Origin: Advenella incenata
GTDB lineage: Bacteria > Pseudomonadota > Gammaproteobacteria > Burkholderiales > Burkholderiaceae_B
Reading direction: 5' to 3'
Assembly: GCF_004217095.1 (NCBI RefSeq)
Contig: NZ_SHKO01000001.1
Span: 806,001-870,000 of the forward strand
DNA: 64,000 bases
The translations under genes were made by a program, and so were the position numbers. Positions 9,743-63,005 of this stretch are shown here, piece by piece (the stretch's first letter is position 1; each line of letters starts with the position of its first letter). The notes beneath the pieces were generated by a model. The model made no database searches and had not been told where the DNA came from. It saw only the letters and a list, made by a program, of their open reading frames with translations.

Positions 9743-9752
9743 CGGGACAGAC

Positions 9753-11802: not shown

Positions 11803-11814
11803 GCGGCTTTATTA

Positions 11815-11835: not shown

Positions 11836-11847
11836 GAATATTATGAA

Positions 11848-11863
11848 TATTGCATGTGCAATA
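11848..11863. promoter_or_regulatory. Inverted repeat TATTGCA-TG-TGCAATA upstream of M55 peptidase
   Basis: Perfect 7-bp arms with a 2-bp centre, 31 bp before the dppA-like start. The core ATTGCA-NN-TGCAAT occurs again at 24756-24769, so this is a candidate operator rather than a chance hairpin. The regulator is unknown. Confidence 0.45.
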
Positions 11864-11894
11864 ACAGTAGGCAAAGAATAACAAGGTGTGATCA

Positions 11895-12719: not shown

Positions 12720-12748
12720 GATTCGGGGCGTCCTGGTGCCAGGGCTGC

Positions 12749-43917: not shown

Positions 43918-44883
43918 ATGAATCCAACGCTATCAGCCATAAAAAATATCCAATTCGGATTCGGCGATATGGATGAACCAATCCCAGAGTTTTCTTATGC
44001 ACTGTGGAAGCATAGAGCTAAAAAAACACAAGTGCATGGTACTCGTATCGCTTTGGCAGAATCTTTCGGTCAAGACGTTGGCAATGCCGACGGTGTATTT
44101 ACTCGAACTCCTGGCCTTCTCTTAACCTTAGTGAATGCGGACTGCTTTCCGCTATTATTTGCAAAACACGATGGTTCTGCGATCGCCGCGCTGCACGTCG
44201 GCTGGCGTGGCGCATTAGGTGGCATTATTTTAAAATTTAAAGAATTACTTATTAATGAAAGGGAAGATCCTGCAGATTGGCAGGTTGCTATTGGCCCAGG
44301 CGCATGCGCGTGCTGTTACGAGGTAACTGATCAAATCATAAGCGATTTTTCAAGAGCCTGGAATTTATCAGCTGAAAAAATTTCACCTACGCATAGAAAA
44401 TTAGACCTACCAGTAATTATCCAGCATCAACTAGCAGTTTCAGGATTTCAACTAACTGGCAATGGCAGTGAGTGTACGATATGTTCAGGAAAAAGCGAGA
44501 ACCGAACACCTGCTTTTCATAGCTTCAGAAGGAGTGGCTCGCAAATGCCACAAGTATCAGCTATCGTAATTCATTCAAACTCTTCAAATAAAACTCAAAA
44601 TTTGGAGAAAATTAGCCGAAGCCGGGAACAAGCCATGATGGATATTTACCCGCGACTATATGATTTTTCCAAAGATAGAATTGGTGTTTCGATTCCAAAT
44701 ATCAATTACCACATCAAACCCAACCCCATCGTCTCAATAGTGACAGATAGAATTTTTTATCATAGGCATCCGGATTTAAAAAATCGGCGAATAACGAACA
44801 TATCGCAAGACTCAAAGTATTTATCGGAATGGGTCAATATTTTTATGGAACAAGGGGGTAATGTGATTTTATCGAAACAATAA
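43918..44883 (+). CDS. YfiH/PgeF-like (laccase-domain, DUF152) protein with C-terminal extension
   Basis: A 321-residue protein. The first ~220 residues are a YfiH/PgeF domain with the metal/catalytic residues His41 (QVHGT), Cys77 (NADCFP) and His94 (LHVGWRG), followed by IGPGACACCYEV. Known members act as purine nucleoside phosphorylases/deaminases or remove mis-incorporated amino acids from peptidoglycan precursors. About 95 extra C-terminal residues (from SNSSNKTQNL to ILSKQ) match no domain I know. It is a paralog of the protein at 61275, with identical spacing of the three residues. ATG at 43918 follows AAAAGGA. It faces the NRPS operon. Confidence 0.85.
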   Translation: MNPTLSAIKNIQFGFGDMDEPIPEFSYALWKHRAKKTQVHGTRIALAESFGQDVGNADGVFTRTPGLLLTLVNADCFPLLFAKHDGSAIAALHVGWRGALGGIILKFKELLINEREDPADWQVAIGPGACACCYEVTDQIISDFSRAWNLSAEKISPTHRKLDLPVIIQHQLAVSGFQLTGNGSECTICSGKSENRTPAFHSFRRSGSQMPQVSAIVIHSNSSNKTQNLEKISRSREQAMMDIYPRLYDFSKDRIGVSIPNINYHIKPNPIVSIVTDRIFYHRHPDLKNRRITNISQDSKYLSEWVNIFMEQGGNVILSKQ

Positions 44884-45008
44884 ACAAACCGCGTCAAATC
44901 AACGTCGAGAACAGTCGCTAGTCTCTGACAATTAGCCTCTATTTTGATTCAAGATTAAAGCATCAATATAGAGATAAAAATACAAATCTATCTTATAAGA
45001 CTAATTTT

Positions 45009-45713
45009 TTAAGAGATTTGCGTAAAGGTAATTACATAATTTTCTAACACATCAAATTTTATAACAAAAATCATACCGCTTTCATAGAATGTGTTGATAT
45101 CCCTATTTAGCTGTAAAAATAGCAAATTCTCTCCTGAAGAAACGGAGCATAATTCCACATCAACAAAATCAAAAAAAATATTAGCGACTGGGTAGATGGC
45201 CTTGAATAACGTTTCTTTTGCGGAAAAAAGAATAGTCGAGCACAACTCAAATGAAAAATTGGTTGACATCAATAACTCGTACTCTTTCCGGCTAGCTATA
45301 TATGAGCATACCTTACTGGCGTTTTCTATGCTCATAATATTTTCAATATCTACACCTATATTCTTTATCTCTGACGTTAATGACACAACAGATACTGCTC
45401 TATTACAAGTATGAGAAATCGAGCCAACTATCCCCTGTGGCCACAAAGGGACTCTATTTTTCCTAATCTCGATTGGAAAGTTCTCTATTCCTATATTTTT
45501 CAAAGCACAAAGCGCTGCAATTCTGCCCGCCAGAAATTCAGCCTTCCTTATCACTGATAATTTATAGAAAATAGCAGGTTTTACTACTCTAAAGTCATCG
45601 AACAATTTGTCACTATAGTAATCAATATTAAATTCACATAAGACTCCATAGACATTAACCGATAATATTGGGTTTCTATAAATGGAGATTTCAACGATAA
45701 ATTTATTTTCCAT
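45009..45713 (-). CDS. 4'-phosphopantetheinyl transferase (Sfp/EntD type)
   Basis: A 234-residue transferase. RKAEFLAGRIAALCAL, then VPLWPQGIVGSISHT, IGVDIE (metal-binding Asp and Glu) and FSAKETLFKAIYP (the KExxxKA motif) are the ordered EntD/PptT marks. It transfers phosphopantetheine from CoA to the carrier-protein serines of the NRPS, making them active. It is the last gene of the leftward operon. Base use is AT-rich like the rest of the island. It converges with the YfiH-like gene at 43918. Confidence 0.9.
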   Translation of the reverse strand: MENKFIVEISIYRNPILSVNVYGVLCEFNIDYYSDKLFDDFRVVKPAIFYKLSVIRKAEFLAGRIAALCALKNIGIENFPIEIRKNRVPLWPQGIVGSISHTCNRAVSVVSLTSEIKNIGVDIENIMSIENASKVCSYIASRKEYELLMSTNFSFELCSTILFSAKETLFKAIYPVANIFFDFVDVELCSVSSGENLLFLQLNRDINTFYESGMIFVIKFDVLENYVITFTQIS

Positions 45714-45834
45714 ATTCTCATTTTCGATGGATAAGTGACTACTTAGAATGGCTCAATAATCGAAATGCGATGGTTTCTTCCAAAAAATATATCAAATCAG
45801 TAACCCTGTAGGCACCTGTCCATCAATTAAAATC

Positions 45835-47082
45835 TTAATTACTCTGCAATCTCATTTTTCTGAACTGAAACAGATCGTGGATGCAAAAAAATACCATAAC
45901 GAAAAACGAGCTAATACAAAGAGTCAGCCAGAACGTCGAGTAATTAGCGCTTGATTCAACGCCCGACAACATATAGCCAAACAAACTATTTCCTAAAATA
46001 GCGCCGATCATTGCTGCAAAGGATGAGAGGCCGAAAATTTTGCCCAATTGTCTGCTTTCTGTATTTTTTGCCAACCAAATGTCAACAAACAACATCACAA
46101 CTACTTCAGCCAAACTGAAAATTATTATTGCAACGATAAAAAAAGCTATAGACAAATTCCCTACGGTTTGTGCCGATAAAGCACTGAAAAAGAAACTCAG
46201 AGTGACAAGAGCTAAACCGATCCCAGAAAGCGGTGTATTTTTCTTCATCAATCGAGCTGCCGGCAATTGAAAGACAACTGCAACAATAGCATTAATGACA
46301 AAAATAGCACCAACAACGGCAACGCTATAATTGTCTTTTGCATATATAGGAAAAGCCAATTCAAGTGATGTATAAAAGAAATGAAAGCAAATTTGAAGTA
46401 ATAGAATTACGAATACAGACGGCGTGAAAATCAACTTAAAGAAACTAGTTAAATCAAATGGAGCCGAGGGTCCTAAACTATCCTTTGCCTCTTTTGGAAT
46501 TTCAAGAAAAAGCAACGTTAGGATTAACGTAAAAATAATAGCAACACATATACAAATTACAGGAAATGACCAAGATAGTAATAAATATCCTACTGCAGGC
46601 CCGAGAATGATTCCCAAATTTAATGCAATGATTCTTGATGCCAGCAGTGCTGCAATATCCCCCTCTCTACTTATCAATAGCGTTTTCCCGGCTGTTTGAG
46701 CTAAAGCTACGCCAACACCACTGAGTAATGTAGCTATCATCAACGTTTCAAAAGACTGAGCAAACGCTAAAAAGACATAGGATACGATCCTTATAAAGAC
46801 ACCCCAAAGCATAAGCGGACGACTACCAAATTTATCTATCAAAAATCCTGCTAATAATGCCAGCCCGCGATGCGCGAAAACATTAACTGACAATAAGATA
46901 CCAATCTCAAAACTGGATATCCCCAGATTTTTAGTCATGTAAAAAATATAGAAAGGAATAATTGCGTAAGATCCGAGTGCCATAAAAAAAATTACGACAA
47001 TCAATAATGCATGTACTCGGTTCAGCAAAAATGCGTCTTTATATTCTGATATCTTATTGCGCAAATTATAGGTTGATTGCAT
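45835..47082 (-). CDS. MFS transporter, probable product exporter
   Basis: A 415-residue 12-helix major-facilitator protein. The N-terminal half has FIYIFYMTKNLGISSFEIGILLS-like FYIFYMTKNLGISSFEIGIL, LLAGFLIDKFGSRPLMLWGV (motif A) and a central loop near residue 200. It most resembles drug-efflux members of the family. Within an NRPS operon, between a ketosynthase gene and the phosphopantetheinyl transferase, export of the product or self-resistance is the likely role. Substrate is inferred from context only. Confidence 0.85.
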   Translation of the reverse strand: MQSTYNLRNKISEYKDAFLLNRVHALLIVVIFFMALGSYAIIPFYIFYMTKNLGISSFEIGILLSVNVFAHRGLALLAGFLIDKFGSRPLMLWGVFIRIVSYVFLAFAQSFETLMIATLLSGVGVALAQTAGKTLLISREGDIAALLASRIIALNLGIILGPAVGYLLLSWSFPVICICVAIIFTLILTLLFLEIPKEAKDSLGPSAPFDLTSFFKLIFTPSVFVILLLQICFHFFYTSLELAFPIYAKDNYSVAVVGAIFVINAIVAVVFQLPAARLMKKNTPLSGIGLALVTLSFFFSALSAQTVGNLSIAFFIVAIIIFSLAEVVVMLFVDIWLAKNTESRQLGKIFGLSSFAAMIGAILGNSLFGYMLSGVESSANYSTFWLTLCISSFFVMVFFCIHDLFQFRKMRLQSN

Positions 47083-47141
47083 CGTCTTCTTATCTTAGGA
47101 AATATACTCTATTGAAAAACCTTTAAAGCCACAGTACTTTA

Positions 47142-48500
47142 TCAAGGAGTAAACAATTTTGGGTTACGGTTGATTATTTGCTTGGTGCCCCCCCCGATCT
47201 CTAAAGGTTGATTTGACTCTTCCAGTAAGATATGAGCATTACTACCCCCAAGCCCGAACGAGCTAATTCCACCGATGCGCTTACCATCGGTGTCCCAAGG
47301 CTGTGCTTCCTTAGCTACTTGGAACTTTGGTGAATGAGCAGAACATTCTTCGGAAAACCGCTCAAATCCATAAAGAGGATAAATCGTCTTCCTCTCCAAA
47401 GCCATCACCATTTTAATTAAACCAATGACGCCAGCAGCAGCATCAAGATGTCCTAGATTGGCTTTGACACTGCCAAGCCATACTGATGAAGTGTGATTTT
47501 CAGCAAAAACGCCTGCAAGCGCAGAAAGCTCGATGCCATCTCCAACCAGGGTGCCTGTGCCATGTGCTTCAATACATGACACATCTTTCGGAGAGATACC
47601 TGAGTTTTTCAAAGCTTTGGTGATTACATTCAATTGCCCATGCGCAGCAGGCGTAGTGAACCCCATCCTACGAGATCCATCGTTATTGATGGCGGAACCG
47701 CGAATAATACCTTTCAAATTTCCTCGGATAACGCCACTGCGAAAATCAGCAAGCCGGCAAAGAACAACCGCTCCTCCTCCCTCACCACGAACTGTACCAC
47801 TTGCCGATTGGCTAAAAGGGCAGCATTTCCCGTCGGAAGACATAATACTGCCAGGAACATACAAATATCCTTTATGTTGAGGCCATCCGATAGACACACC
47901 GCCAGCCAAAGCTATATCACAATCACCGCTCAATAGAGCTTGGCGCGCTAAATGAACCGTTGCTAGTGAGCTCGAACATGCATTTTGAAGCGTTAAGGTT
48001 GGACCCTCACATCCCAAGCGATAGGCGACGTTTGCAGCAAGATGGGAGACACTATTAAAGATTTCGAGACTGAAGCGTTTTAATGAGTCTCCTGGTATAT
48101 CCGAAAAACTGGATGCGTAGTTATTACTACTTTTGGTAGCGAACACCCCGGTAGAGGGATACTCTCCAACGTCGATACCAGCACTTTCAAGCGCTAAATG
48201 ACAAATTTCAAGAAACTGGCGATGCTGTGGGTCTGTAAGCCGTGCCTCAGATGGCGGGATGCGGTAGAGCGCATTATCGAAATAAGCAGCATCTTCAAGT
48301 ATTGCCCTATACGGTCGATAATCTGGATGACTAAACGTAGATTCCTGAACACCAGCTTCTCTCAACTCGGTTTCAGAAACCTCTCGAATAGACGATTTAT
48401 TTGATACAAGTAAATGGTGAAATTCTTCTGGCGAAGATGCGCCGGCGACGCGGCACCAGTATCCAATTATAGCGATATCTTCCTCGGTATTATATGGCAT
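47142..48500 (-). CDS. Stand-alone beta-ketoacyl synthase (polyketide-type KS)
   Basis: A 452-residue single KS domain of modular type. The active-site Cys175 is in TLQNACSSSL (the usual DTACSSSL reads QNACSSSL). The catalytic His313 is in EAHGTGT, and Lys346/His351 in KANLGHLDAAAG. All catalytic residues are kept, so it should catalyse decarboxylative Claisen condensation or acyl transfer. No acyltransferase, ketoreductase or ACP is fused to it, so a malonyl donor would need a trans-acting enzyme such as housekeeping FabD. It follows the C-A-PCP gene after 58 bp. Confidence 0.9.
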   Translation of the reverse strand: MPYNTEEDIAIIGYWCRVAGASSPEEFHHLLVSNKSSIREVSETELREAGVQESTFSHPDYRPYRAILEDAAYFDNALYRIPPSEARLTDPQHRQFLEICHLALESAGIDVGEYPSTGVFATKSSNNYASSFSDIPGDSLKRFSLEIFNSVSHLAANVAYRLGCEGPTLTLQNACSSSLATVHLARQALLSGDCDIALAGGVSIGWPQHKGYLYVPGSIMSSDGKCCPFSQSASGTVRGEGGGAVVLCRLADFRSGVIRGNLKGIIRGSAINNDGSRRMGFTTPAAHGQLNVITKALKNSGISPKDVSCIEAHGTGTLVGDGIELSALAGVFAENHTSSVWLGSVKANLGHLDAAAGVIGLIKMVMALERKTIYPLYGFERFSEECSAHSPKFQVAKEAQPWDTDGKRIGGISSFGLGGSNAHILLEESNQPLEIGGGTKQIINRNPKLFTP

Positions 48501-48558
48501 TCGTATTCTCCGTTAGTATTGTGGCAAGCCATCAAGTGACCTCACCAGCACGTGGCAA

Positions 48559-51500
48559 TTAAATAGGTGTTGTCGCCACTAATTTTTCTTGATCAGCTAT
48601 AGTTGGATGATTGAATAAGTCCACGATGCTAACCTGAACGTGAAATTGACTATTTAGTTCCCTTTGTAGATCGAGCATCAATAACGAATGACCTCCTGCG
48701 TCAAAGAAGTTTAGATCGTGTTCAATTGGATCGGATAAACTTAACAATCGGCTCCAGATCGACTCTACAGAGCTGACCTCAAATGCATTTTTTTTGCTTT
48801 GCAGAGCCGACCATTGATTAAAAAAAAGTTCAGAAAGGGCTTTCTCATCAATTTTTCCTGAAGAATTGATAGGAAATTCTAATACGGCAATGAAGTGTTC
48901 CGGAATAAAGGCTTTTATCAAAGACCTCTTTAACATCTCTAGCAAAGAGCCGTTATCAAATGAGTCAGCTTCAAATGTTTTTACAAATGCCACTAACGTT
49001 TCTTTACCGTCCGGCAGCTGGAGTATCTGCAGATGACTTCCCGCAACCTGAGGGCACCGATCCAGTTCATACTCAATAGCACCCAGTTCAAGACGAACGC
49101 CTCTAAGTTTGACTTGTCGATCAAGACGCGTAATATATTCAAGCTGTCCGCTTTCATTCCAACGTACCATATCCCCGGTACGATAAGCTGCCCCATGAGA
49201 AAAGCCAGGGATGCGCACAGAAATAAATCCTCTCTGATCCTCGGTTCCAACATAGCCGATCCCAACACATTCGCCCATTAATAGCAATTCCCCTATGGAT
49301 CCTCTAGGCGCCAGGCCACCCAGTTTATCTAAAACAGCGACCTGTACATTGGGGATTGGGCTGCCAATTGGAACTTTATTGCCCTGGATATGTTGATCAA
49401 TCGGCTGAAAAACACAACCGATTGATGCCTCCGTCGGGCCGTACGAATTAATGATTTTAGCTTGAGGAAGAAGATTTCTAATGCGTATTGCTGTCGCAAG
49501 TGGTAGCCGTTCTGCGCCAATTATGATCCATCGAAGAACTTGTAATTTACGTTTTATCTCGGTAGAATTCTCCATTTCTGGCAGAAGACGGTTAAGCACT
49601 GAAGGGACAAAATCAATTACAGTGATTTTCTCTCTTTCAATCAGAGCAGCTAGTGCGAAAGGGTCAAAAATCTCAGTCTTAGCAGGCAACACGCACTTTC
49701 CGCCACGCGTCAACGGCCACAATATTTGCCAGACTGAGCTATCAAAAATATAGGGTGTTGTCTTTAGTGTGACTGGCGCCTCATCACCAAACATCGAAGT
49801 CATCCATGAAAAACGATTGCAAATTCCTTTGTATGGTATCGCGGCAATTTTCGGTTCGCCCGTAGTACCAGAGGTTGAAATAGCATAAATTGGCGAGTCT
49901 GGTAAAACGTCAACATAGTCAGTTTTTTCTAGATTAGTATTATAGATTTCCGAAATAGATTTAACGTTTGGTATGGATAAACTCAATCCTAGCGAAAATT
50001 TCGCATTTGTTTTTTGTGTTACTTGCTCTATCTGTTTTTTTGGCCAAGCATAATGTACCGGTACCCATGCCGCTCCAGCTAGCATAATTCCCAAGACCTC
50101 TGCAACGGGATGAGTTTTATCATCCATAACAACCAAAACAAAATCACCCGGCAAGACTTCATGCTGGAGAAGAGTTGCTGAAATGATCGCAGCTTGGTGA
50201 AAAAGCTGCTGGTATGTTAATTGTAATTGCCCCGAGAAGGCTAGTTTTTGAGGATGCTCGTTAAGGCGCGCCGCAATTGCAGGCATTATGGGGCATGTGT
50301 CTTGCTGACGCTCTTTTCCCGACAAAACATGAATCAATTCGTCTTCCTGCTTAGACGGCAGATAAGAGATTGTATTCAAACAACAAACTGGGTCAGAAAG
50401 GCAAAGTGACAATGCAACGTGCACTTGTTCTATTAGTCGATTCAGGAACGCTGGTGAAAATCGCTCCAAATCACCATCCAAGAATAGTGTTAAACCATTG
50501 GAACGATTTTCGCAAGTTAATGAGATATCGCAACTGATTGATGAAGACCACGTTTCAACCTCAGTGCACGCTGAGAGACTTCCGTGCCCCAATACGGACA
50601 AATCGTGATAGGAAACGGTCGCTTGGAATATTGGATGACGGTTAACTAATTTTTCATGGGGTAGTTTCTTTACTATTTCGTCAAAAGGAATCGCCGAAAA
50701 ATCCAATCCATGAATCAATCTAGATTTCACTGACTCACACAGCTCAATAAAACTCTTATCCTCGTTTACTTCACAAAGTAATGGGATAATATTCAGAAAT
50801 GGGCCAATGGCATCGAGCGTATCTATTTGATTTCGAGTAGATACGGGAACTCCAATAATTACTGTTTTGTCGTCGATGTAGCGCGACAGAACGGCTGAGA
50901 AAATTCCCGATAACACCATCGGCACAGTTAACTTATATTTATTACAAAATGCTTGTAAAGATTCTGTCTGCTCCGCCGAACATTGTATAGCTGATCTATG
51001 CAAGGAACAAGTCGACTCTGCGGAAAGATCAGGCTCGCACGGAAGATTGAGTACAGTGGGTACATTCTTTAACTCGTTCAACCAGAAGTCAATCCCGCCT
51101 TCTTTGATTTGTTGTGACTGCTCTTCCTCTACTGCTGCGGCACAACGTGAAAAGTCGTCAATTTGAAAAGAAGGACTCGTTTCATTAGCTAGACAAGATT
51201 GTTGGAAATATGCAGCATCTATTTCACGAGTGATAATACGTGCAGATGTTTCATCACAAATGATATGATGAAAAACGAAAAACAAATAATCACCATCAGA
51301 AGTCGAAATTCCAGCAATACGCCATGGCCGCTCATCAATCAAATTAAACGAGCCCCCGATCGTTGCAGGTAAATTTTCTAGCGTAATGGGATAAACAAAT
51401 TTATCTTGTTCGAACCAAGGGATATCAATTTTTCCAGAGAGCGTCTGTCGAAATTCAGGCTGATAAACGTCATTAAGATAGATGCGTGTCAACAGTATTT

Positions 51501-51693
51501 GATGACGATAGAAAGCCTCTTGCACTATTCTACTTAGCCGTTCTCTATCGACCGTTTCTTTAAATTGAACCCCCCAAAAAATAACATTATTGTCTTTTCC
51601 TTCCATACGCTGGTGCTCAAACCAAAATCTGCTTTGCTGTCTGGTAAACGCAAACGTTTTAATCCTATCTTGGCTATTCGTATCACACCGCAT
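48559..51693 (-). CDS. NRPS module C-A-PCP
   Basis: A 1044-residue NRPS. The condensation domain fills about residues 1-430, with HHIICDE in place of HHxxxDG. The adenylation domain runs from about 470 to 950: TSGTTGEP (A3), YIFDSSVWQ (A4), NSYGPTEAS (A5), YRTGD (A7), INSSGK (A10 Lys). Reading the substrate-pocket residues gives D-S-W-D-I-G-S-I-G-K. Asp at position 4 of the code is often seen with cationic residues such as Arg or Orn, but the full code is not one I recognise. The PCP Ser is near residue 1003 (DAGGHSL). It overlaps the upstream A-PCP gene by 11 bp. Confidence 0.92.
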   Translation of the reverse strand: MRCDTNSQDRIKTFAFTRQQSRFWFEHQRMEGKDNNVIFWGVQFKETVDRERLSRIVQEAFYRHQILLTRIYLNDVYQPEFRQTLSGKIDIPWFEQDKFVYPITLENLPATIGGSFNLIDERPWRIAGISTSDGDYLFFVFHHIICDETSARIITREIDAAYFQQSCLANETSPSFQIDDFSRCAAAVEEEQSQQIKEGGIDFWLNELKNVPTVLNLPCEPDLSAESTCSLHRSAIQCSAEQTESLQAFCNKYKLTVPMVLSGIFSAVLSRYIDDKTVIIGVPVSTRNQIDTLDAIGPFLNIIPLLCEVNEDKSFIELCESVKSRLIHGLDFSAIPFDEIVKKLPHEKLVNRHPIFQATVSYHDLSVLGHGSLSACTEVETWSSSISCDISLTCENRSNGLTLFLDGDLERFSPAFLNRLIEQVHVALSLCLSDPVCCLNTISYLPSKQEDELIHVLSGKERQQDTCPIMPAIAARLNEHPQKLAFSGQLQLTYQQLFHQAAIISATLLQHEVLPGDFVLVVMDDKTHPVAEVLGIMLAGAAWVPVHYAWPKKQIEQVTQKTNAKFSLGLSLSIPNVKSISEIYNTNLEKTDYVDVLPDSPIYAISTSGTTGEPKIAAIPYKGICNRFSWMTSMFGDEAPVTLKTTPYIFDSSVWQILWPLTRGGKCVLPAKTEIFDPFALAALIEREKITVIDFVPSVLNRLLPEMENSTEIKRKLQVLRWIIIGAERLPLATAIRIRNLLPQAKIINSYGPTEASIGCVFQPIDQHIQGNKVPIGSPIPNVQVAVLDKLGGLAPRGSIGELLLMGECVGIGYVGTEDQRGFISVRIPGFSHGAAYRTGDMVRWNESGQLEYITRLDRQVKLRGVRLELGAIEYELDRCPQVAGSHLQILQLPDGKETLVAFVKTFEADSFDNGSLLEMLKRSLIKAFIPEHFIAVLEFPINSSGKIDEKALSELFFNQWSALQSKKNAFEVSSVESIWSRLLSLSDPIEHDLNFFDAGGHSLLMLDLQRELNSQFHVQVSIVDLFNHPTIADQEKLVATTPI

Positions 51694-53413: not shown

Positions 53414-56400
53414 AAATTTCGGCTCCCTCAAAGACCATAACTGTTTCCATCAGCTTCGATACCCAATTATTAAGTAAATCATCAAGGGTATTTTGATTAA
53501 AAGCATCTTCATTTCCATCAATGAACAAGACTATCTCCTTTTCGCTATAACGAACTTGAAAATTCAATAGTGAGTGAGAGTGTTGGACATTAACCTCTGT
53601 CACCTTTGCTATCGCATCACCTGCCATATCATCGAGAGCACGGATACATCCATACATAATTGGAAGAGTATTTTTTTGATTCATTCTTTTTTGCAATTCA
53701 AGCTGCAACCAGGTAGACGAAACAGAACTGTGTCTATTAGCGTCCTTTACCGTCCGAACAACTTCTAAGAGAAACTCTTCACGACTCATTGAAGACTGAT
53801 GTTGAATTAACAGAGGGACAAGATTTCCATAAAAGCCGACGCCAGTTGGCAGCTCTTCCTTATGTCTTACCGACATAATAGTGCCAATGGAAATCGCTTG
53901 CGCCCCTAACCAGTCACTCAATATTCTGGCGGCAAGAGAAAGCATAAATTCGTATAGGGTAACGTTATATTTTTGGCAAATGGATACGAGTGTTTCGTAA
54001 TTCTTTCCAATAATGTGAGAGGAAGACCTAAGCGACCGGGTATCGGTTACGTTATCGATCATTAACGGCTGCAGTTTTGTAAGGAAATGAGAGTCTAATT
54101 TATTCAAATTCTTGAGCCACCATTTGCGATTATCATGTTCGTCTTGAACAGAGCGTTTTGTTTTACCAAATTCCATGACCGGAAGACGAATCCGCTCGTT
54201 GTTGGTCAAGCTCTTCCGAACAATCTCAACTAACAGGTTTAAAGAAATTTCATCAATAAGTAGATGATGAAAATTAAATATTAGTAACGTAGGGGCGCAT
54301 TTATTCAGAACTACCGTTAACCGCCATAATGACGACTCTGTCGGATCAATATTTTTTTGTGAAGCACGAAGAGTGATAGCTTCTACTTCTGCACCACTAA
54401 AATCGCCGATATAATAATCTACAGCGGGCTTTTCTTCAATATAGACCCATTCGCCATCCAGCGTAGATCGACAGCGCATCAACGGCGACGAAAAAAATAA
54501 ACTATTTATTAGTTTTTCAGACTTATAACTACTGCTATATGTCTCATTTACATGGATAACAAAAGCGACATTATTAGCAGGGCTATTATCAGTCAATATA
54601 GAAAGAAACAACATCTGGCGTTGAGCATCAGTAATTTCAGGAACTGTGCTTTTAATTTCACTTTCTAAGACGCCCGACGAATCTATCGTATTCAAAAAAG
54701 CAGTCAGCGCATTAACTGTATTGAACTGATAGAGTATGGATGAGGGTAAGGTTTTTCCAATTGCTCCCCCGATCAAGGAAGCAATCTTAAGCGCAGAAAG
54801 GGAATTAACTCCAAGAGAAAAAAAGTCGACATCACTATCCAAATGACTTAATCCAGTAGACCTTAAAATTATCTCCGAAATTAATGTTTCTAAACGGGTT
54901 AAAGCGACATTTTCGTTTCCAACTAGTTGAGCAGGAATATTTTCTGACCACAACCGTAGTTGTTTTCGGTTTACTTTACCGTTTGGCAGCTTAGGCAAAC
55001 TTTCACGAATCTCCCAGCGCCCGGGGATCATATATAGCGGCATTTCTTCACCAATTGAGTGCCGCATAGTTTGTACATCCGTTTGACAATTAGATACCAA
55101 AACAATATATGCAACCAGTAGTGCATTTTCTTGATTCTGATGTGCAACTACGACAGCAGCCTCAAGAATATGAGGTTGATTTAACAACGTTTCCTCTATT
55201 TGCTGAAGTTCTATCCGGTGCCCTCTGATTTTGACTTGGTCATCAATGCGGCCTAAGTATTCCAAATTTCCATCAGGAAGTTGGCGTGCCATATCACCAG
55301 TTCTATAGGCTAGTATAGAGTTTTGATCGATTAAATCCAGAGTAACAAACTTCTCTTTGGTCAGGGCTGGCTGATTTATATAGCCGGCGGAAACTCCTTG
55401 TCCAGCGATATAAATCTCACCGATTTCCCCTGATGAAACCATTTTTTTTTGCTTATCAAGAATAAAAATTTGCGTTTCTCGAATTGGCTTCCCAATAGAT
55501 ACTTTATCCTCACCAACTTGAATTTCAGTGTATGTCGAATATGTTGTAGTTTCAGAAGGCCCATACAAGTTAACGACTCTGGCCACATTAGGAAAGCCAC
55601 GGAGCGAATTGACGAGGTCTATACCTAACGGTTCACCAGCTAAGTTAACCACAAGTTTTTCTCGTGGCAATGCATTAAGGCGCAATATTTCACGCATTAT
55701 AGAAGGTACTGTATTAATAAGCGTCGGCCGGGTGTCCTCAGACAACGACATTATTGAGAGTCCGTTCTCCACCAAGTAACAAGTTCCACCAGCAGCCAAT
55801 GTTCCAAAAATTTCAAATATAGAAAGATCAAAACATATTGACGTACTACAAATAACACGTGACATCTCTTGCCGACTAAACGCGGTAAGCGACCATTCAA
55901 TAAGATTGACGGCATTTTTGTGCTGAATCATGACTCCTTTAGGTACTCCGGTCGAGCCAGAAGTGTATATGACATAGCATATGTCAGTAGCTTTAACCGA
56001 AATTTCTGTAGGAATGGAATTATGGTTCAACTTGTCAATATCATCGATACTAAGCGACACATACCCCGGATTTTGATTTTCCGTGAGCTGATCATTATCT
56101 TGGATCAAAAATTTTAAACCCGAATCCTTAATAACAAAATCCAACCATTTGGAAGGGTATGCTGGATCCAATGGAACCCAACTACAACCAGCTCTCAGAA
56201 CTCCTAACAAGATACAAAGCAATTCGGTATTACGTTTCACAGCCACACCAATCCGATCTCCAGTTGATGCACCATTTTTTATTAATAATTGCATCCACAT
56301 AGTAGAGCGGGTATATAGTGCAGCATAGGTTAGCGTTATACCTTGCTCATCAACTACAGCAATCAAGTCCGGTATAGCGCTGACCTTCTTTAAAACAAAC

Positions 56401-56420
56401 TCGTGTAAACTGTGAGACAT
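53406..56420 (-). CDS. NRPS module A-PCP-C
   Basis: A 1004-residue NRPS that starts directly with an adenylation domain, as a loading module would. A3 is YTSGSTGVPKG, A4 is CFDLSIFE, A5 is NLYGPSETT, A7 is YRTGD and A10 is LPNGKVN. Pocket residues read D-L-F-N-N-A-L-T-Y-K, which to my memory is the code recorded for alanine-activating domains in microcystin-type systems. The PCP motif near residue 555 is LGVNSLSA, with Val replacing the usual second Gly. A C-terminal condensation domain follows, with HHLLIDE. GGAGATC precedes ATG. Confidence 0.92.
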   Translation of the reverse strand: MSHSLHEFVLKKVSAIPDLIAVVDEQGITLTYAALYTRSTMWMQLLIKNGASTGDRIGVAVKRNTELLCILLGVLRAGCSWVPLDPAYPSKWLDFVIKDSGLKFLIQDNDQLTENQNPGYVSLSIDDIDKLNHNSIPTEISVKATDICYVIYTSGSTGVPKGVMIQHKNAVNLIEWSLTAFSRQEMSRVICSTSICFDLSIFEIFGTLAAGGTCYLVENGLSIMSLSEDTRPTLINTVPSIMREILRLNALPREKLVVNLAGEPLGIDLVNSLRGFPNVARVVNLYGPSETTTYSTYTEIQVGEDKVSIGKPIRETQIFILDKQKKMVSSGEIGEIYIAGQGVSAGYINQPALTKEKFVTLDLIDQNSILAYRTGDMARQLPDGNLEYLGRIDDQVKIRGHRIELQQIEETLLNQPHILEAAVVVAHQNQENALLVAYIVLVSNCQTDVQTMRHSIGEEMPLYMIPGRWEIRESLPKLPNGKVNRKQLRLWSENIPAQLVGNENVALTRLETLISEIILRSTGLSHLDSDVDFFSLGVNSLSALKIASLIGGAIGKTLPSSILYQFNTVNALTAFLNTIDSSGVLESEIKSTVPEITDAQRQMLFLSILTDNSPANNVAFVIHVNETYSSSYKSEKLINSLFFSSPLMRCRSTLDGEWVYIEEKPAVDYYIGDFSGAEVEAITLRASQKNIDPTESSLWRLTVVLNKCAPTLLIFNFHHLLIDEISLNLLVEIVRKSLTNNERIRLPVMEFGKTKRSVQDEHDNRKWWLKNLNKLDSHFLTKLQPLMIDNVTDTRSLRSSSHIIGKNYETLVSICQKYNVTLYEFMLSLAARILSDWLGAQAISIGTIMSVRHKEELPTGVGFYGNLVPLLIQHQSSMSREEFLLEVVRTVKDANRHSSVSSTWLQLELQKRMNQKNTLPIMYGCIRALDDMAGDAIAKVTEVNVQHSHSLLNFQVRYSEKEIVLFIDGNEDAFNQNTLDDLLNNWVSKLMETVMVFEGAEIYE

Positions 56421-56449
56421 AACGATCTCCTACAATTTGAATTGAAAAT

Positions 56450-57202
56450 TTAGGGCAAAAAATGTTTATTTAAATATGCGTTAATAATCGAAAACATTTC
56501 ATCTTTATTATTGTTAATAAAGAAATGCCCGCCTGGAAATTCGTTGAACTCTACAGTAGCAATAGTCTCTGTTACCCACTCAAAAGCTTTCGAATAATCA
56601 TGAGCCTCATCATCTACTCCTGAAAGAACAAGAATAGGCACATTAATTTTCTCGCTACGTTGATAAGAAAAGCTGTCTACCAATGACAAATCTGCCTTGA
56701 TCGTGGGTATAAACAACTCCATCATATCGTTATCTTTTAGAACCTGTTCTGGCGTTCCGCCGTACTCTCGTAACATAGCAATCAATGCTGCATCGGTTAG
56801 TTCTTCCTTCGTATTGGAGCTGAATTTCTCTGGTGCTTTACAGCCGGAGATAATCAAACAATTTGGTACCTGGTGCCCTTCAATATAGAGTTGACGGCAA
56901 ACTAGGAACGAAAGTAGGCCTCCCAAACTATGTCCAAAAAAGGCAAACGGTTTGCTAGCACCGGCAAAAAGCGGCACCATCTCTCGTACTAAAATTTGGA
57001 TATCGTCGGAGAATGCGGCTGAATAATGTGACCCACGTCCAGGAAGTTGAACTCCTATCAGGTCGAATTGTTTAGCAATATCCTTTTGCCAGTTCATAAA
57101 CGATGCCACGTTTCCCCCAGCATAGGGGAACATATATAGTTGATATGGACGTTCATTGCCATTTCTACAAACAAACCATTTCTTGAAATCAATCGCATTC
57201 AT
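56450..57202 (-). CDS. Type II thioesterase (alpha/beta hydrolase)
   Basis: A 250-residue thioesterase of the GrsT/TEII kind. The fold begins LYMFPYAGGNVASFMNW. The nucleophile is Ser92 in FFGHSLGGLLSF, the acid is the Asp in LVLSGVDDEAHDY and the base is in EFPGGHFFINN. Type II enzymes clear misprimed carriers, and can also release products. No type I thioesterase is fused to any module here, so this protein may provide release as well as proofreading. A TTG at 57211 is an alternative start. It lies between the S66 peptidase and A-PCP-C genes. Confidence 0.9.
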   Translation of the reverse strand: MNAIDFKKWFVCRNGNERPYQLYMFPYAGGNVASFMNWQKDIAKQFDLIGVQLPGRGSHYSAAFSDDIQILVREMVPLFAGASKPFAFFGHSLGGLLSFLVCRQLYIEGHQVPNCLIISGCKAPEKFSSNTKEELTDAALIAMLREYGGTPEQVLKDNDMMELFIPTIKADLSLVDSFSYQRSEKINVPILVLSGVDDEAHDYSKAFEWVTETIATVEFNEFPGGHFFINNNKDEMFSIINAYLNKHFLP

Positions 57203-57296
57203 ACGGAGCAATACCTTACCTACTAAAAAACGAAATCAATCGTCAAATAATCATTCCAATTGGATCAATCCTTCAGATACTCACATGCAGTGATAT

Positions 57297-58181
57297 TTAT
57301 AGTTTCGTATTCATGTAAGTCAGATTCCCGTTTCTAAGAGTTGCTTTAGCACCGTACTTCCATGCTAGATTATGAGGACCATGACCAAATTCAGCGCCGA
57401 AAAATACAGGTATCGATAACGGCTCTAGTAACTTGGCCACAAGCAGCTCGACTTTCTGTTCCTCATCGCCAGAAAACGAACAATCCATAAATTCACCCAA
57501 AACAATCGCTTTAACACCCGACATAACATTCGAGAAATAGAGCTGATGAATTACTCTATCCAATCGATAAAGGGGTTCTTTGACGTCCTCAAGAAATAAT
57601 ATTTTATCCGTCCCATCAAATTGAAATTTCGTTCCACACAAACTCGCCATAACTGTCAAGTTTCCTCCTGCAACGGATCCCTCAATAACATGATCGCGTA
57701 TTGCCAACGCATTTGCTGGGACAAATTTTCGCACTGGAATCAGGAAATCTTTAGAAATAATATCCATTACATATTTTTGGCTTTGGATATCGTTGTAGGC
57801 GCTAAGCTTTTCCACCATTGGTCCGTGGATCAATTTACGAGACCCTGTACGATAAAGGGCCTCAAGAAGAATCGTTGAGTCAGAACTTCCTATAACAATT
57901 TTCTCTGTCATAGGTATGTCAGAAAGGTGGTCCAAGCACTGTAGAAGCCCATATCCACCACGAGCTATCCAAATAACGTCACAATCAGCTTCATTAATGG
58001 CCCAGAGTAAATCTTGTATTCTGTTTTCAACTGTTCCCGCACAGTACCAATTACGAAGATTAAACTTGGGACTTTGAATTACTCGATGACCATAGGACTC
58101 AATAAAACGGACACTCTGTTGCAACAGGTCTGTATCAGCCGGACTTGATGGCGAAATAAGAGCAATTTTCTTATCGTCCAT
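57297..58181 (-). CDS. S66-family peptidase (LD-carboxypeptidase LdcA / MccF-like)
   Basis: A 294-residue member of peptidase family S66. The nucleophile Ser100 lies in VIGSSDSTILLEAL, the conserved Glu in ILFLEDVKEPLYRLDR and the His in FGHGPHNLAWKYG, together the Ser-Glu-His triad. The N-terminal SPSSPADTDLLQQ and ARGGYG are also typical. Known members trim the terminal D-Ala of peptidoglycan tetrapeptides (LdcA) or cut processed microcin C to give immunity (MccF). In an NRPS operon a maturation or self-resistance role is more likely than cell-wall recycling. Its start overlaps the C-PCP gene by 11 bp. Confidence 0.87.
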   Translation of the reverse strand: MDDKKIALISPSSPADTDLLQQSVRFIESYGHRVIQSPKFNLRNWYCAGTVENRIQDLLWAINEADCDVIWIARGGYGLLQCLDHLSDIPMTEKIVIGSSDSTILLEALYRTGSRKLIHGPMVEKLSAYNDIQSQKYVMDIISKDFLIPVRKFVPANALAIRDHVIEGSVAGGNLTVMASLCGTKFQFDGTDKILFLEDVKEPLYRLDRVIHQLYFSNVMSGVKAIVLGEFMDCSFSGDEEQKVELLVAKLLEPLSIPVFFGAEFGHGPHNLAWKYGAKATLRNGNLTYMNTKL

Positions 58182-59850
58182 AGTTTTCAAAGCTCTCTGC
58201 CTTGTCAAAAATATTTTCTTCTACTAGTGCCGACATCAAGTCGAAACGAGTACATTGATAGATATCTTTGAGGGGTATTTGAAGTCCAAACTGTTGGTTT
58301 ATTTGCCACAGTAGCCGGATCAATAGAAACGAATTACCACCCTCTAGAAAAAAGTCGTCTTTTTCTTTTATTGACTCACTTCCTAGTAATTTAGCCCAGA
58401 GAATACTTAGTTCATATTGAACACCCTTTTTTTCAATTGCCTGTGTCTCAATCGCAATTGGAGGTTTTTCAAAAACAGGGGCTTGTCGAAGCGTATTCCA
58501 TTTATGTAACCCCTCCTCATTATGTATTTTATTGAAGAGTTCACCAATTCGAATATCTGGTTGACTTGTTACAAGCTTGGTGATTTGTAAAAAAATATTC
58601 TTAATTTTTTCTATTTTTTTATCAGTAAAAAGCTCTTTTTCATATTCTATAGTGCAATGAAGATATGAGTCCCAGTCAGATATATTCATCATTAGGGGGA
58701 ATTTCGCTCTTCCATTATGCACATTCAAATTGGGTGAGAAATTTTCACTAATTCGAGAGTCCTTCATCATTTTACGAGGCTGATACTGAATGTACGCATT
58801 CACTGGATCGCCGATATTTTTTCTTTGGACGTATCTAGCGCGCTCGATTAACTTTTCATACGTCATAGCACGATGCTCAAATGTTTCCATAATATTGGCT
58901 TCGTTATGACGTAGCACAGAGAATGCCATATCATCAAGGGAGAAACTATGATGGATTGCCAACGTATTAATAAAGCACCCCAGTGAGCGCTTAAACTTTA
59001 CTTTTTCTCGAAAGGCCGTAGCTGTGGCTATAAAAAAATTGCTTTTGTTCGAAATCAAGCCGAGCAAAAGTGCCCAGATCGTAAGTAAACCAGCGAACTC
59101 GGTGGACTGTTCGCGCCGACACCATGATCTGAATGTTGAAAGCTCATCTCCATCAATTAAAAAAGCTATTTCCCGACCAAGTCTGGAACGATCAGGATTG
59201 GGTTGTTTATCATAAGGTAACGCAATAGCTTCTAAACCTTTAGCCAGTTGTTTATCCCAGAACGCGAATAGCTTTTCTTTCTGCTGAAGAAACCTAGTGT
59301 TTTCAAATAAAACATAATCAATATAAGCAGGCGCATGCATCAAATCCCTATGCTCTCCTTGGTGCTCGATTTCGTATAGCATATCAAGCTCCGTCATCAT
59401 TACATTTATTGAGTTCTGATCAGTGGCGATATGATGCGTGAGGAGTACAAGCAGATTTTGCGCTGGTGAAACAGAAACAATAAAAGCACGAAAGACAGGC
59501 CCGTTCTCGACATCTATATGAAATTGCGCGATTGCATCGGCAATATTGGCCGATTTTTCTTCATCATCTATACCTTCATACTCGAAGCAATACTCTTCGA
59601 CCATCCAGTGACTTGCAGGAAAGACCTCCTGATGGACTACCCCGTTAACTATTGGGTAGCATGTGCGAAGTATGTCATGTCGCAATACCAATTTCTGCAA
59701 CGCCTTAGCCAAATAATCTAGATTAATATCGGAGCCCAACTTTATCGCGAGAGTAATGTTGTAATACGGGCTTTCTGGCTCTAATTGACTCATGTACCAC
59801 AAACGTTGTTGAGCAGCCGATAAATCAGCCGTTCTTTTAGGAACGACCAT
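58171..59850 (-). CDS. NRPS protein C-PCP (no adenylation domain)
   Basis: A 559-residue protein. The condensation domain opens LSAAQQRLWYMSQLEPESPYYNIT and carries HHIATDQ where HHxxxDG is usual. The carrier Ser is near residue 507 in FFLEGGNSFLL. No adenylation domain is present, so the carrier must be loaded in trans by another module's A domain, or the C domain may catalyse transfer or release. AGGAG precedes the ATG. It follows the monooxygenase gene by 3 bp, which suggests the two act on the same carrier-bound intermediate. Confidence 0.9.
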   Translation of the reverse strand: MVVPKRTADLSAAQQRLWYMSQLEPESPYYNITLAIKLGSDINLDYLAKALQKLVLRHDILRTCYPIVNGVVHQEVFPASHWMVEEYCFEYEGIDDEEKSANIADAIAQFHIDVENGPVFRAFIVSVSPAQNLLVLLTHHIATDQNSINVMMTELDMLYEIEHQGEHRDLMHAPAYIDYVLFENTRFLQQKEKLFAFWDKQLAKGLEAIALPYDKQPNPDRSRLGREIAFLIDGDELSTFRSWCRREQSTEFAGLLTIWALLLGLISNKSNFFIATATAFREKVKFKRSLGCFINTLAIHHSFSLDDMAFSVLRHNEANIMETFEHRAMTYEKLIERARYVQRKNIGDPVNAYIQYQPRKMMKDSRISENFSPNLNVHNGRAKFPLMMNISDWDSYLHCTIEYEKELFTDKKIEKIKNIFLQITKLVTSQPDIRIGELFNKIHNEEGLHKWNTLRQAPVFEKPPIAIETQAIEKKGVQYELSILWAKLLGSESIKEKDDFFLEGGNSFLLIRLLWQINQQFGLQIPLKDIYQCTRFDLMSALVEENIFDKAESFENYGR

Positions 59851-59853
59851 AAC

Positions 59854-60984
59854 TTATACTCCTATGTGAAGCTTATGTTCAGATTCAATTTCGGCTTTAA
59901 TCGCAGCCACTTCCTTAAGTGATTGCAATGCTTGTTCTGTTGGCACGCCGAAGTCAATCAAGCACGCAATTTCATCTACTCCGATTTTCATCAAATCATC
60001 TATTACCTTACGACAATGCTCCGGGGTACCAATTAATGAAGCATCACGGGTGTATCGGCGAGCAGCGTGTTCAACCAGCGCGTCCTTGTCACTATCACTA
60101 AGTTTGTTAATTTTGCTGTAATCTGCTCGGGGCGCTGCAAAATTAAGGTGTTCTTTTAGGTAGTTTTTTAATGGTTGCACACCATGCTGCTCAACATCTT
60201 TCTCATCTGAACTCACATAGGTATGCAGCATCAAAGTTACCGTACCACCTTCCTGATCAGTACAATTAGGTTGGAGACACTCCCTGTAACTCTGTATACG
60301 ACTAGCTAAAGTTTTTCTATCAAGTGCTAGTAAGCTGGTGAGGATATTAGCACCTTGCCCACCAGCGTATTTAAAGCTATCTTCGCTTTCAGATGCAGTA
60401 ATCCAGAGAGGCAAACTCTTCTGGTACGGGCGGGGTAGCGTTACCACTGATGTTTCTCTTTGCAACCCATCTTTACCCGTAAATGATTCGCCTCGCCAAA
60501 GCTTAAGTAGATCCGTAACATTGTTCCGAAAAATCTCACGCCTGTCCGAATAATTTTCAGGCTTTAATACAAAATCTGAGGGATGAAAACCTGGAGCAAC
60601 CGACATACCAACTCTTCCGGAGGAAATGTTATCAATAACACTCCACTCCTCAGCTACATTGATAGGGTTGTGCAGAGGTAAGACTACACTGCCCGCCCGA
60701 ATTCCTAAACGTTTGGTAGTAGCGGCAATTGCTGACGCGACGATAGCCGGTGACGGAAATAGTCCTCCAAAAGCATGAAAATGCCGTTCTGGTAGCCAGA
60801 TTGCTTCAAACTCTGCCTCTTCAGCCAGTTTTGCCGCATTCATTACAAGGTCATAAATGCCACTTGTAGAAACTGTAGGCGCCTCACCAGAGAAGAAAAA
60901 AACGCTAAATTTTGGAATTCTATGGTTTGCACTGTTATCACTTATTGCTTGAGAAATGCTCGTCTCGTTATTTGTTTTCAACAT
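59854..60984 (-). CDS. Luciferase-like flavin monooxygenase (NRPS/PKS-associated type)
   Basis: A 376-residue flavin-dependent monooxygenase with the bacterial-luciferase TIM barrel. FSVFFFSGEAP, EEAEFEAIWLPERHFHAFGGLFPSPAIVA, then GSVVLPLHNPINVAEEWSVIDN and GRVGMSVAPGFHPSDFVL match the natural-product luciferase-like monooxygenases (MupA type) found in PKS and NRPS clusters. Such enzymes perform hydroxylation, N-oxidation or Baeyer-Villiger insertion using FMNH2 and O2. It sits directly after the free carrier-protein gene and before C-PCP, so the substrate may be carrier-bound. The exact chemistry is unknown. Confidence 0.88.
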   Translation of the reverse strand: MLKTNNETSISQAISDNSANHRIPKFSVFFFSGEAPTVSTSGIYDLVMNAAKLAEEAEFEAIWLPERHFHAFGGLFPSPAIVASAIAATTKRLGIRAGSVVLPLHNPINVAEEWSVIDNISSGRVGMSVAPGFHPSDFVLKPENYSDRREIFRNNVTDLLKLWRGESFTGKDGLQRETSVVTLPRPYQKSLPLWITASESEDSFKYAGGQGANILTSLLALDRKTLASRIQSYRECLQPNCTDQEGGTVTLMLHTYVSSDEKDVEQHGVQPLKNYLKEHLNFAAPRADYSKINKLSDSDKDALVEHAARRYTRDASLIGTPEHCRKVIDDLMKIGVDEIACLIDFGVPTEQALQSLKEVAAIKAEIESEHKLHIGV

Positions 60985-60997
60985 TGCGCATAGTCCC

Positions 60998-61240
60998 TTA
61001 CTGTTTCATGTCACAAAGAATTTCTGCTAATGCATCAGGAGTGGGATCACTCAAAAACTCTCTCAACGGAATTTTCTTTCCTGTTTGTTCGTTAATTTTT
61101 TCGATCACGTCCAAAGCGGTAAGAGAGCATCCTCCCACATTAAAAAAATCGTCGTTATTGTTTATTTCCTCGATCTCAAGTACATCAATAATTGATTTTT
61201 TTACAATATCTCGCGCCTGATTAACAGTAGTTGTGTTCAT
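60998..61240 (-). CDS. Free-standing carrier protein (PCP/ACP)
   Basis: An 80-residue stand-alone carrier. The phosphopantetheine attachment site is Ser39 in DDFFNVGGCSLTALD. Charged helices on both sides fit the four-helix carrier fold. It is expected to hold an amino acid or acyl group for the flavin monooxygenase encoded 13 bp downstream, and is activated by the operon's phosphopantetheinyl transferase. AAGGAAA precedes the ATG. Confidence 0.9.
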   Translation of the reverse strand: MNTTTVNQARDIVKKSIIDVLEIEEINNNDDFFNVGGCSLTALDVIEKINEQTGKKIPLREFLSDPTPDALAEILCDMKQ

Positions 61241-61274
61241 ACCTTATTTCCTTAATGTGAGATAAACAGGATTT

Positions 61275-61946
61275 CTATTCCATAACGACAAAACTGACTT
61301 GTACTTCTTTCGTGTGGTCCCTTCTGTAACTATGATAGGTAGGTTGTATCGACGGGCTTATTGAATTAATTGAAGAGCAGACCGTACATTGATTTAAATC
61401 TTCAAAAGCGCCAATGCCGATCTCCTGCAGCTGAAAAGCAATTACAGCAGGTAGGTCCAACATTCGATATGACGGACTTAAAGTGGAGTTTGGAAGATTA
61501 AATTTTGATGAAAAATCTTTTAGCAATGTGTCCGACACTTGATAGCAACACGCCCGTGCTCCGGGACCTATAGCCGCTATCCATCCCGCCATATCATCTC
61601 CTTTAGAGCGGATTAGGTCGTTCAAACCATAAATTATCCCGTGATAGGCCCCTCTCCAGCCAACATGCAAAGCTGCTATTTCAGAACCGTCTTTTCGAGC
61701 AAAAAGAACCGGATAACAATCGGCGTTCACAAGTGTAAGTAAAATTCTTTTTTGTAATGTGTACCAACCATCGGCTTCTCCTACTGATTGATTAGTATGA
61801 AGGGCGACGGCGATTTTAGTCCCGTGAACCTGCTTTTTTGTTGGTCGTGACAACCAAAACTGGGCAGCAAAAGAAGGCAAAGGTTCGTCACGGCACCCAA
61901 AGCCATGCCGAACACCATTTATTGTATTTAACAAGGAACATTCCAT
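61275..61946 (-). CDS. YfiH/PgeF-like (laccase-domain, DUF152) protein
   Basis: A 223-residue YfiH/PgeF-family protein and first gene of the NRPS operon. His41 (KQVHGT), Cys77 (NADCYP) and His94 (LHVGWRG) form the expected metal/catalytic set at exactly the spacing of the longer paralog at 43918. IGPGARACCYQV and CTVCSS near the end are also shared. ATG at 61946 follows AGGTG; an in-frame ATG at 61967 lacks a ribosome binding site. Role in the cluster is unknown; it may hydrolyse an amide or nucleoside bond of the product or an intermediate. Confidence 0.88.
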   Translation of the reverse strand: MECSLLNTINGVRHGFGCRDEPLPSFAAQFWLSRPTKKQVHGTKIAVALHTNQSVGEADGWYTLQKRILLTLVNADCYPVLFARKDGSEIAALHVGWRGAYHGIIYGLNDLIRSKGDDMAGWIAAIGPGARACCYQVSDTLLKDFSSKFNLPNSTLSPSYRMLDLPAVIAFQLQEIGIGAFEDLNQCTVCSSINSISPSIQPTYHSYRRDHTKEVQVSFVVME

Positions 61947-63005
61947 TCGCGCACCTATATCGACCATCGTATTAATTACGCAATCCCATCTCAGGGACTT
62001 TGATTGAATGATCGTGACTAAAACATATCAAAAACAAAACACTGAGCTAAGGCTATCTCATCCGATACGTATACAAATTCCTACAGATACAGAGGCCATG
62101 AGCTGCTGCGATTGCGTGATATAAGTACACTTTTTAGATGAAAAGAAATTTCATCTATTACTTATTTGGAATAACCACGAGACATATAGAGAGACCAACC
62201 GACACTTTCACATTACGCTGTCATCTCGATTGATTCGGACCGGCGATTCCTAAATATTAAGAATATCGTAGCGAACAAAAATATAAAAGGCAATATATAA
62301 ATGCATTATGTTTGTTTTTTTACATTAATTTATAGCAAGTAAGAGAAACGTTGATGTGTAGCTAGATGCATTGGTAATATCGCTATTGTTATCTGTTAGT
62401 ATGACGACGCGATTTCATATTTAACATTCTGTTGAGTATTGAACCGTTCGAAATAAGAAAAGAATTGAGCGGCTTTCAGATAACCGTTTGCTTTTAAATT
62501 GGGATTAATATCGACAAGACAGACCAAACGGTGACCAGAGCGAAGCAGTTTCTATGCAGCACGAGCTGATGCTAATTAAGATCGATAAGAAGGTAAACAA
62601 ATTGGTTACTTTATTAGTCGGATTTCTACAACGCTTTTATATTGATTTCACTTTCCGCCTATTACTGATATTAATCAAACTCATTAGCTAAGGTAGCTGC
62701 GTACTTCAAAAAGAGTATTTGGCCGTCTTTAACAATCCTGGAGTGTGATTCCCTTCCCAGGCATATTCCGACGAATATGTATTTGCTTGGCCTATTTTCA
62801 GAGACATAACAAGGTTCCGGCAAATTCGGCTTGGCGCTTTTTCACTTAATCCCGATTTACAGTCAACTTGTAATGGTTTTATTTTCGGATGAAAAAATCT
62901 CTGCAGTGGTCTGAAATCAATAGTTATTAGTATTTAATATTTATTTATAAGCATTGATTTATTCAAAATAACTTTATTATTGGTCCGTCCATAAAGCTAC
63001 GAAGT
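61947..63005. other. AT-rich non-coding region upstream of the NRPS operon
   Basis: About 1 kb without a supported gene on either strand. It must contain the operon promoter, reading leftward. A perfect 9-bp inverted repeat at 62135-62157 is listed separately. No RNA gene or tRNA was recognised. Confidence 0.6.
62135..62157. promoter_or_regulatory. Perfect inverted repeat upstream of NRPS operon
   Basis: TAGATGAAA - AGAAA - TTTCATCTA, 9-bp arms and 5-bp spacer, about 190 bp upstream of the first operon gene. It has the shape of a dimeric repressor/activator site. It could also fold as a hairpin in RNA, but no T-run follows on either strand. Confidence 0.5.

Follow-up and report, generated by a model that had tools for sequence, protein, structure and literature searches.

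We analysed a 64,000-nucleotide stretch of the Advenella incenata genome (contig NZ_SHKO01000001.1, positions 806,001 to 870,000 of the forward strand; hereafter the window) and found in it a compact nonribosomal peptide synthetase (NRPS)–ketosynthase (KS) gene cluster, which lies on an acquired genomic island and is accompanied by two PgeF/YfiH-family proteins, YfiH1 and YfiH2, and an S66 peptidase. We tentatively favour, at slightly under an even chance, the reading that this is an orphan cluster on a mobile island for an alanine-initiated peptide-ketide, with the YfiH pair and the S66 peptidase serving as cytoplasmic hydrolases for self-protection or processing. The odd feature of the cluster is the pair itself, PgeF-like hydrolases that, judged from their aligned residues, have lost the carboxylate-binding Arg.

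Gene content and predicted assembly line

The cluster comprises twelve leftward genes from position 61967 to 45009 (Table 1). The original prediction had placed gaps of 3-121 bp or overlaps between them, in agreement with the list of open reading frames (34, 13, 3 bp, overlap, 85, 29 bp, overlap, overlap, 58, 59 and 121 bp), and its domain counts were reproduced by Pfam and NCBIfam (3 AMP-binding, 3 Condensation, 5 PP-binding and one ketoacyl synthase). The same scans found a luciferase-like monooxygenase (LLM), a type II thioesterase (TEII), an S66 peptidase, a major facilitator superfamily (MFS) protein and an Sfp/EntD-type phosphopantetheinyl transferase (PPTase); adenylation (A), condensation (C) and carrier (PCP) domains, a KS and a PPTase, as expected of an NRPS/polyketide synthase (PKS) hybrid, are all present. 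As also predicted, one YfiH/PgeF-like gene opens the operon, 34 bp ahead of the carrier gene, and another faces its far end, both matching PF02578. The start of YfiH2 at 43918 agrees with its paralogue, with an alternative in-frame ATG at 43783, and the listed start of the S66 gene is a TTG, with an ATG 27 bases downstream.

The A-PCP-C, A-PCP and C-A-PCP genes overlap in that order, and the KS gene comes next. The code region of the first A domain had McyA as its best solved match (8jbr, 150.7 bits), and nine code positions were equal in the printed alignment; the McyA domain takes Ala or Gly. The KS retains all three catalytic motifs in its translation (NACSSS, EAHGTG and NLGH; nearest solved sequence 7zma, 395.5 bits). 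The LLM scored 415.7 bits against the TIGR04020 cut-off of 244.45, and its nearest solved structure was PuwE (6ket, 297 bits). In the puwainaphycin pathway, monooxygenase and aminotransferase domains are said, in an excerpt of PMC4219810, to turn the chain into a 3-amino-2-hydroxy acid.

Read colinearly, A(Ala)-PCP-C, A-PCP and C-A-PCP would give an Ala-X-Y tripeptide, to which the KS would add a malonyl unit that a housekeeping acyltransferase has loaded. With the chain on a carrier, the LLM would then oxidise its new alpha carbon, C-PCP would either lengthen or release the chain, and the MFS protein would export the product. No signal peptide was seen by eye in the S66 peptidase or in either YfiH protein; these enzymes would work in the cytoplasm, their target being the product itself or a cell-wall precursor that bears it. 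We infer this order of assembly, the substrates of KS and LLM, the malonate extension, the alpha oxidation and the role of the hydrolases. No acyltransferase (AT) domain was found by Pfam among the 13 cluster proteins scanned, and trans-acting acyl loading of the KS is possible. The earlier proposal of a small oxidised peptide or peptide-polyketide is supported in that the genes point to an NRPS-KS pathway whose product would be a small peptide or peptide-ketide, probably oxidised; literature searches and plasmid records gave no characterised match.

An altered pair of YfiH-like proteins

Both copies lie above the PF02578 cut-off of 22.9 bits, and both fall under the equivalog cut-off of the PgeF family TIGR00726 (125.5 and 128.8 vs 141.15 bits). 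A third PF02578 gene of the host, located elsewhere (G000:C3:430680-431351), scores far higher at 234 bits. YfiH1 and YfiH2 are 48% identical to each other. Against the host's own protein and the single PgeF-type match of 38 relatives, YfiH1 shows 26-37% identity. In the tree, whose bootstrap had not settled, the two copies are sisters (support 100/96) with a Massilia protein adjoining (99/95), and they belong to a clade apart from canonical PgeF, which we call YfiH-II. L017 was absent from the alignment, L043 (wrong frame) was dropped and the tree omits nine Serratia rows; L040 groups with the canonical proteins on a long branch, has Lys at the Arg235 column and was kept out of the motif counts.

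According to an excerpt of PMC8844914, which also gives the residue roles used here, including binding of the substrate carboxylate by Arg235, the substrate bond of E. coli YfiH is an amide; the enzyme also cuts UDP-MurNAc dipeptides, with lower activity, and has no detectable activity on the UDP-MurNAc tripeptide. When aligned to E. coli-type YfiH, both copies keep the equivalents of Asp89, Cys107, His124, His71, Gln69, Trp127, Arg128 and Arg228, so that the Cys-His-Asp triad and most UDP-MurNAc contacts are in place in both; Tyr227 is retained by YfiH1 and replaced by Phe in YfiH2. Arg235, expected in a PgeF, is replaced in both copies, and no Arg follows SxRR (SYRR in YfiH1) in the stretch examined in either, the YfiH2 extension set aside. 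The canonical motif (SxRR with GR 2 to 5 residues on) was present in 26/26 canonical rows and in none of the 49 clade rows, the 38 further loci (together 87 clade rows, 84 of them distinct sequences) or the two cluster copies. We considered and rejected the idea that the whole clade lacks an equivalent of Arg235: 38 of the 49 rows carry GRNQ or GRHQ, with the Arg displaced by one residue, L093 has one in the aligned column, and all other printed rows have one somewhere in the loop, leaving only the two cluster copies with no loop Arg at all. A Gln-type tail was seen in 49/49, 24/38 and 2/2 sequences, respectively, the other 14 of the 38 having His (six), Asn (one) or Met or Leu (six) by eye, with L157 not read. 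As the pair lacks the carboxylate-binding Arg, 'PgeF' is unsuitable as a functional name.

The predicted structure of YfiH2 (mean pLDDT 81.1) matched YfiH structures in Foldseek, including the UDP-MurNAc complex 7f3v (7f3v_A: TM score 0.55 by query, 0.71 by target). About 95 further residues extend YfiH2 at its C-terminus (44602-44883, plus strand); they are modelled with low to middling confidence and match no Pfam family over cut-off.

The S66 peptidase

The S66 protein has both domains of its family (PF02016 and PF17676), and its Ser, Glu and His motifs, which we take to be the catalytic triad, align with those of PA5198. It is closer to this LdcA-type protein (134 bits) than to MccF (66 bits), and it scores under the NCBIfam equivalog cut-off (129.8 vs 378 bits).

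YfiH-II genes outside the cluster

A profile of the pair recovered, above 150 bits, one other genome in a 369-genome class sample, and a three-row profile recovered three others (>230 bits) in a phylum sample of 398 and one other (248 bits) in an order sample of 399; the three samples overlap. In the family of G982, YfiH-II was present in 42/373 genomes at 1e-28; 38 of these loci were examined, and G982 itself is L045. Two of the 38, L138 and L145, duplicate L079 and L088. A pattern scan, which catches only genes fitting two short patterns, gave 45 named loci (Serratia 18, Rahnella 8, Yersinia 4, Kushneria 4, Chimaeribacter 3, eight others). These loci (L050-L094) show the YfiH-II clade as a second PgeF-family gene kept in many Enterobacterales genera. 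In 36/45 an rlmA-like gene (Pfam on L065) lies upstream on the opposite strand. At all four Yersinia loci (L069, L070, L071, L076; about 7970-9694) a divergent penicillin-binding-protein gene, with transpeptidase and dimerisation domains on L071, adjoins the YfiH-II gene and separates it from the rlmA-like gene, which hints at a cell-wall role of YfiH-II.

The original prediction had also envisaged a recurrent system of YfiH-like, S66 and C-PCP genes, and this part was not supported. In tblastn searches with the cluster proteins (1e-6; flanks up to 10 kb, some contigs shorter, remote homologues able to escape), no condensation-domain gene was found near the 45 named or 38 further loci, and the C-PCP query had no match at any of them. 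Any cluster-protein match was found at 1/45 named loci (an AMP-binding-type stretch about 9 kb off, L070) and at five of the 38 (AMP-binding-type in three, KS-like about 8 kb away in one, TEII in one). YfiH-II thus stands mostly alone, which does not support a conserved YfiH-S66-NRPS system. The TEII locus, L148 (9523-14890), has YfiH-II beside a PPTase and a type II thioesterase with a TonB receptor next, and no further cluster-type match within the fetched 78.7 kb. Its PPTase escaped tblastn, so remote homologues may have been missed at other loci as well.

Searches for the cluster itself were likewise negative. The C-PCP protein was matched neither in the nine congeners (1e-60) nor in 267 further genomes from the family of the host (1e-55), plasmid records held nothing of at least 60% identity to YfiH1, C-PCP, LLM, S66 or KS, and viral scans with P0002, A2 and A3 gave no relative, whereas one with A5 gave a single 27% relative. 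Literature searches gave no work linking YfiH or laccase domain/PgeF to nonribosomal gene clusters, none on LD-carboxypeptidase in nonribosomal-peptide self-resistance and none on LLM with nonribosomal peptide and hydroxyglycine; one paper, PMC10269595, mentions DUF152 and nonribosomal peptide synthetase a single time each.

The genomic island

The block that holds the cluster is an acquired island, a setting that the original prediction had not noted. Its GC content is about 0.40, against mostly 0.51-0.60 in the chromosome to its left, and rises again rightward over recombinase genes. The low GC of the cluster had raised Legionella as a candidate host, which was rejected because of the higher GC of the host DNA and because the 16S matched Burkholderia-type plasmid records at 90-92% over about 80% of the query. 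Among the ten genomes of the genus searched, own included, the left flank was found in six and a close right flank (at least 81% identity) in seven, a tally that weak short matches raise to ten. Four of the nine congeners (G005, G006, G007, G009) have an empty site, with flank matches 513 to 683 bases apart compared with 32 kb in the window's genome. By alignment the joints lie at window positions 42931-42943 and at the window-equivalent 74415-74447, giving an island of 31.5 kb that extends about 10.4 kb past the window end. No tRNA was found and Rfam gave no match, and the roughly 100 bases at each joint shared no direct or inverted word of at least 7 bases.

Beyond the window (L025, G000:C1:867001-886000), three adjacent recombinase-type genes of 614, 536 and 391 aa occupy the right end of the island (8670-13307, minus strand); two have a phage-integrase catalytic domain, the middle one has a weak SAM-like match, and together they are probably its mobility module. 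The island also carries a Lamassu LmuABC system (L025, 3784-7188, minus strand; LmuB 575.7, LmuC 174.5, LmuA 429.5 bits).

Weighing the readings

The reading that we favour, an orphan peptide-ketide cluster with self-protection or processing by YfiH-II and S66, draws on the domain and family content, the overlapping NRPS genes, the McyA and PuwE matches, the intact KS and S66 motifs and the conserved YfiH residues, as well as on the sister relation of the YfiH copies and the place of YfiH1 at the operon start. Several results weigh against it. The other two A-domain codes, read by hand, gave no assignment; AT, ketoreductase and terminal thioesterase (TE) domains were all missing from the cluster, so that the KS step and chain release are guesses. 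Promoter-like and terminator-like matches were rarer than in shuffles, so no operon promoter can be named. Our limited searches found no homologous cluster to show that the YfiH pair and S66 are co-inherited with the NRPS genes, and YfiH-II occurs elsewhere with no NRPS found nearby, so the pair may be passengers.

As passengers, the two proteins would be cell-wall or nucleoside housekeeping hydrolases brought by the island and foreign to the pathway, an explanation that we consider fairly unlikely. YfiH-II genes that stand by themselves are frequent among Enterobacterales genera and within the family of G982, and the second copy is convergent and outside the operon; on the other hand, YfiH1 heads the twelve-gene row with a short gap to the next gene, and two sister copies bracket the cluster.

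Quite improbable, in our view, is that YfiH-II is a tailoring or release enzyme that stands in for a terminal thioesterase, its catalytic Cys taking the chain from the carrier for hydrolysis, cyclisation or transfer. This would suit the lack of a TE domain in every NRPS gene, the intact triad and the TEII and PPTase beside YfiH-II at one of the 38 loci (L148), but the E. coli enzyme works on an amide (excerpt of PMC8844914) and that one locus is bare of other cluster-type matches in its fetched 78.7 kb.

We regard as very unlikely a Trojan peptide, in which an Ala-initiated peptide would be joined to UDP-MurNAc by Mur or recycling ligases, YfiH-II would cut it off and the LdcA-like S66 would trim the other end. 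The scheme leans on the tolerance of Mur and recycling ligases for such peptides. The first residue would be in a peptide bond, so no Arg would be needed for a free carboxylate, which fits two copies that keep most UDP-MurNAc contacts and lack an Arg in the Arg235 stretch; the closeness of S66 to LdcA rather than MccF, the Ala-like first A domain and the penicillin-binding-protein neighbour at 4/4 Yersinia loci also fit. The E. coli enzyme speaks both ways, with its lower activity on dipeptides for the scheme and its undetected activity on the tripeptide against it (excerpt of PMC8844914), and YfiH-II is widespread apart from any such cluster, while product residues 2 and 3 were left unassigned by the A-domain codes.

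A long shot, finally, and at odds with the same inactivity on the UDP-MurNAc tripeptide, is that the cluster makes a mimic of a cell-wall precursor, that the Arg-less YfiH-II and LdcA-like S66 form a modified editing branch that protects the producer by stripping the compound from UDP-MurNAc precursors, and that the clade elsewhere is a widespread second editing enzyme; if true, YfiH-II outside the cluster would be an unrecognised second peptidoglycan-editing enzyme.

Table 1. Features of the cluster and island in the window
Feature	Position	Strand	Basis
YfiH-II protein 1 (YfiH1), 230 aa, first operon gene	61275..61967	-	PF02578 119.5 bits
Free-standing carrier protein, 80 aa	60998..61240	-	PF00550
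Luciferase-like FMN monooxygenase (LLM), MupA/Atu3671 family	59854..60984	-	TIGR04020 415.7 bits
C-PCP didomain NRPS	58171..59850	-	PF00668 + PF00550
S66 peptidase, LdcA-like	57297..58208	-	PF02016 + PF17676
Type II thioesterase (TEII)	56450..57211	-	PF00975
A-PCP-C NRPS; A domain McyA-like, probably Ala	53406..56420	-	Domain scan + McyA 8jbr match
A-PCP NRPS	51683..53431	-	Domain scan
C-A-PCP NRPS	48559..51693	-	Domain scan
Free-standing ketosynthase, Cys-His-His motifs, no AT domain	47142..48500	-	PF00109/PF02801
MFS exporter (predicted)	45835..47082	-	PF07690
Sfp/EntD-type phosphopantetheinyl transferase	45009..45713	-	PF17837 + PF01648
YfiH-II protein 2 (YfiH2), 321 aa, convergent to operon	43918..44883	+	PF02578 122.1 bits
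In-window part of 31.5-kb genomic island	42944..64000	.	Joints from congeners with empty site

Comparison with known systems

The cluster is a compact, colinear gene set of an unstudied pathway, amenable to testing in a laboratory host. The genes of the PgeF/YfiH family split into at least two clades, and one of them, YfiH-II, has been drawn twice into this natural-product cluster with its substrate pocket altered, which makes a direct substrate test possible.

The YfiH pair shares with E. coli PgeF/YfiH (7f3v, 7w1g) the fold, the triad and the equivalents of His71, Gln69, Trp127, Arg128 and Arg228, and differs in the absence of an Arg from the Arg235 stretch, in a shorter N-terminus and in its presence as two copies at an NRPS cluster. 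The S66 protein resembles LdcA-type PA5198 in its two domains and aligned Ser/Glu/His motifs; unlike PA5198, it sits inside an NRPS operon and scores under the equivalog cut-off. With MccF, the microcin C immunity peptidase, whose gene accompanies a natural-product pathway, it shares the S66 family and such a setting, whereas the match is weaker and split in two stretches. Like puwainaphycin-type systems, the cluster combines an LLM and a KS within one pathway, but its LLM is free-standing and it has neither AT, aminotransferase nor fatty-acyl ligase.

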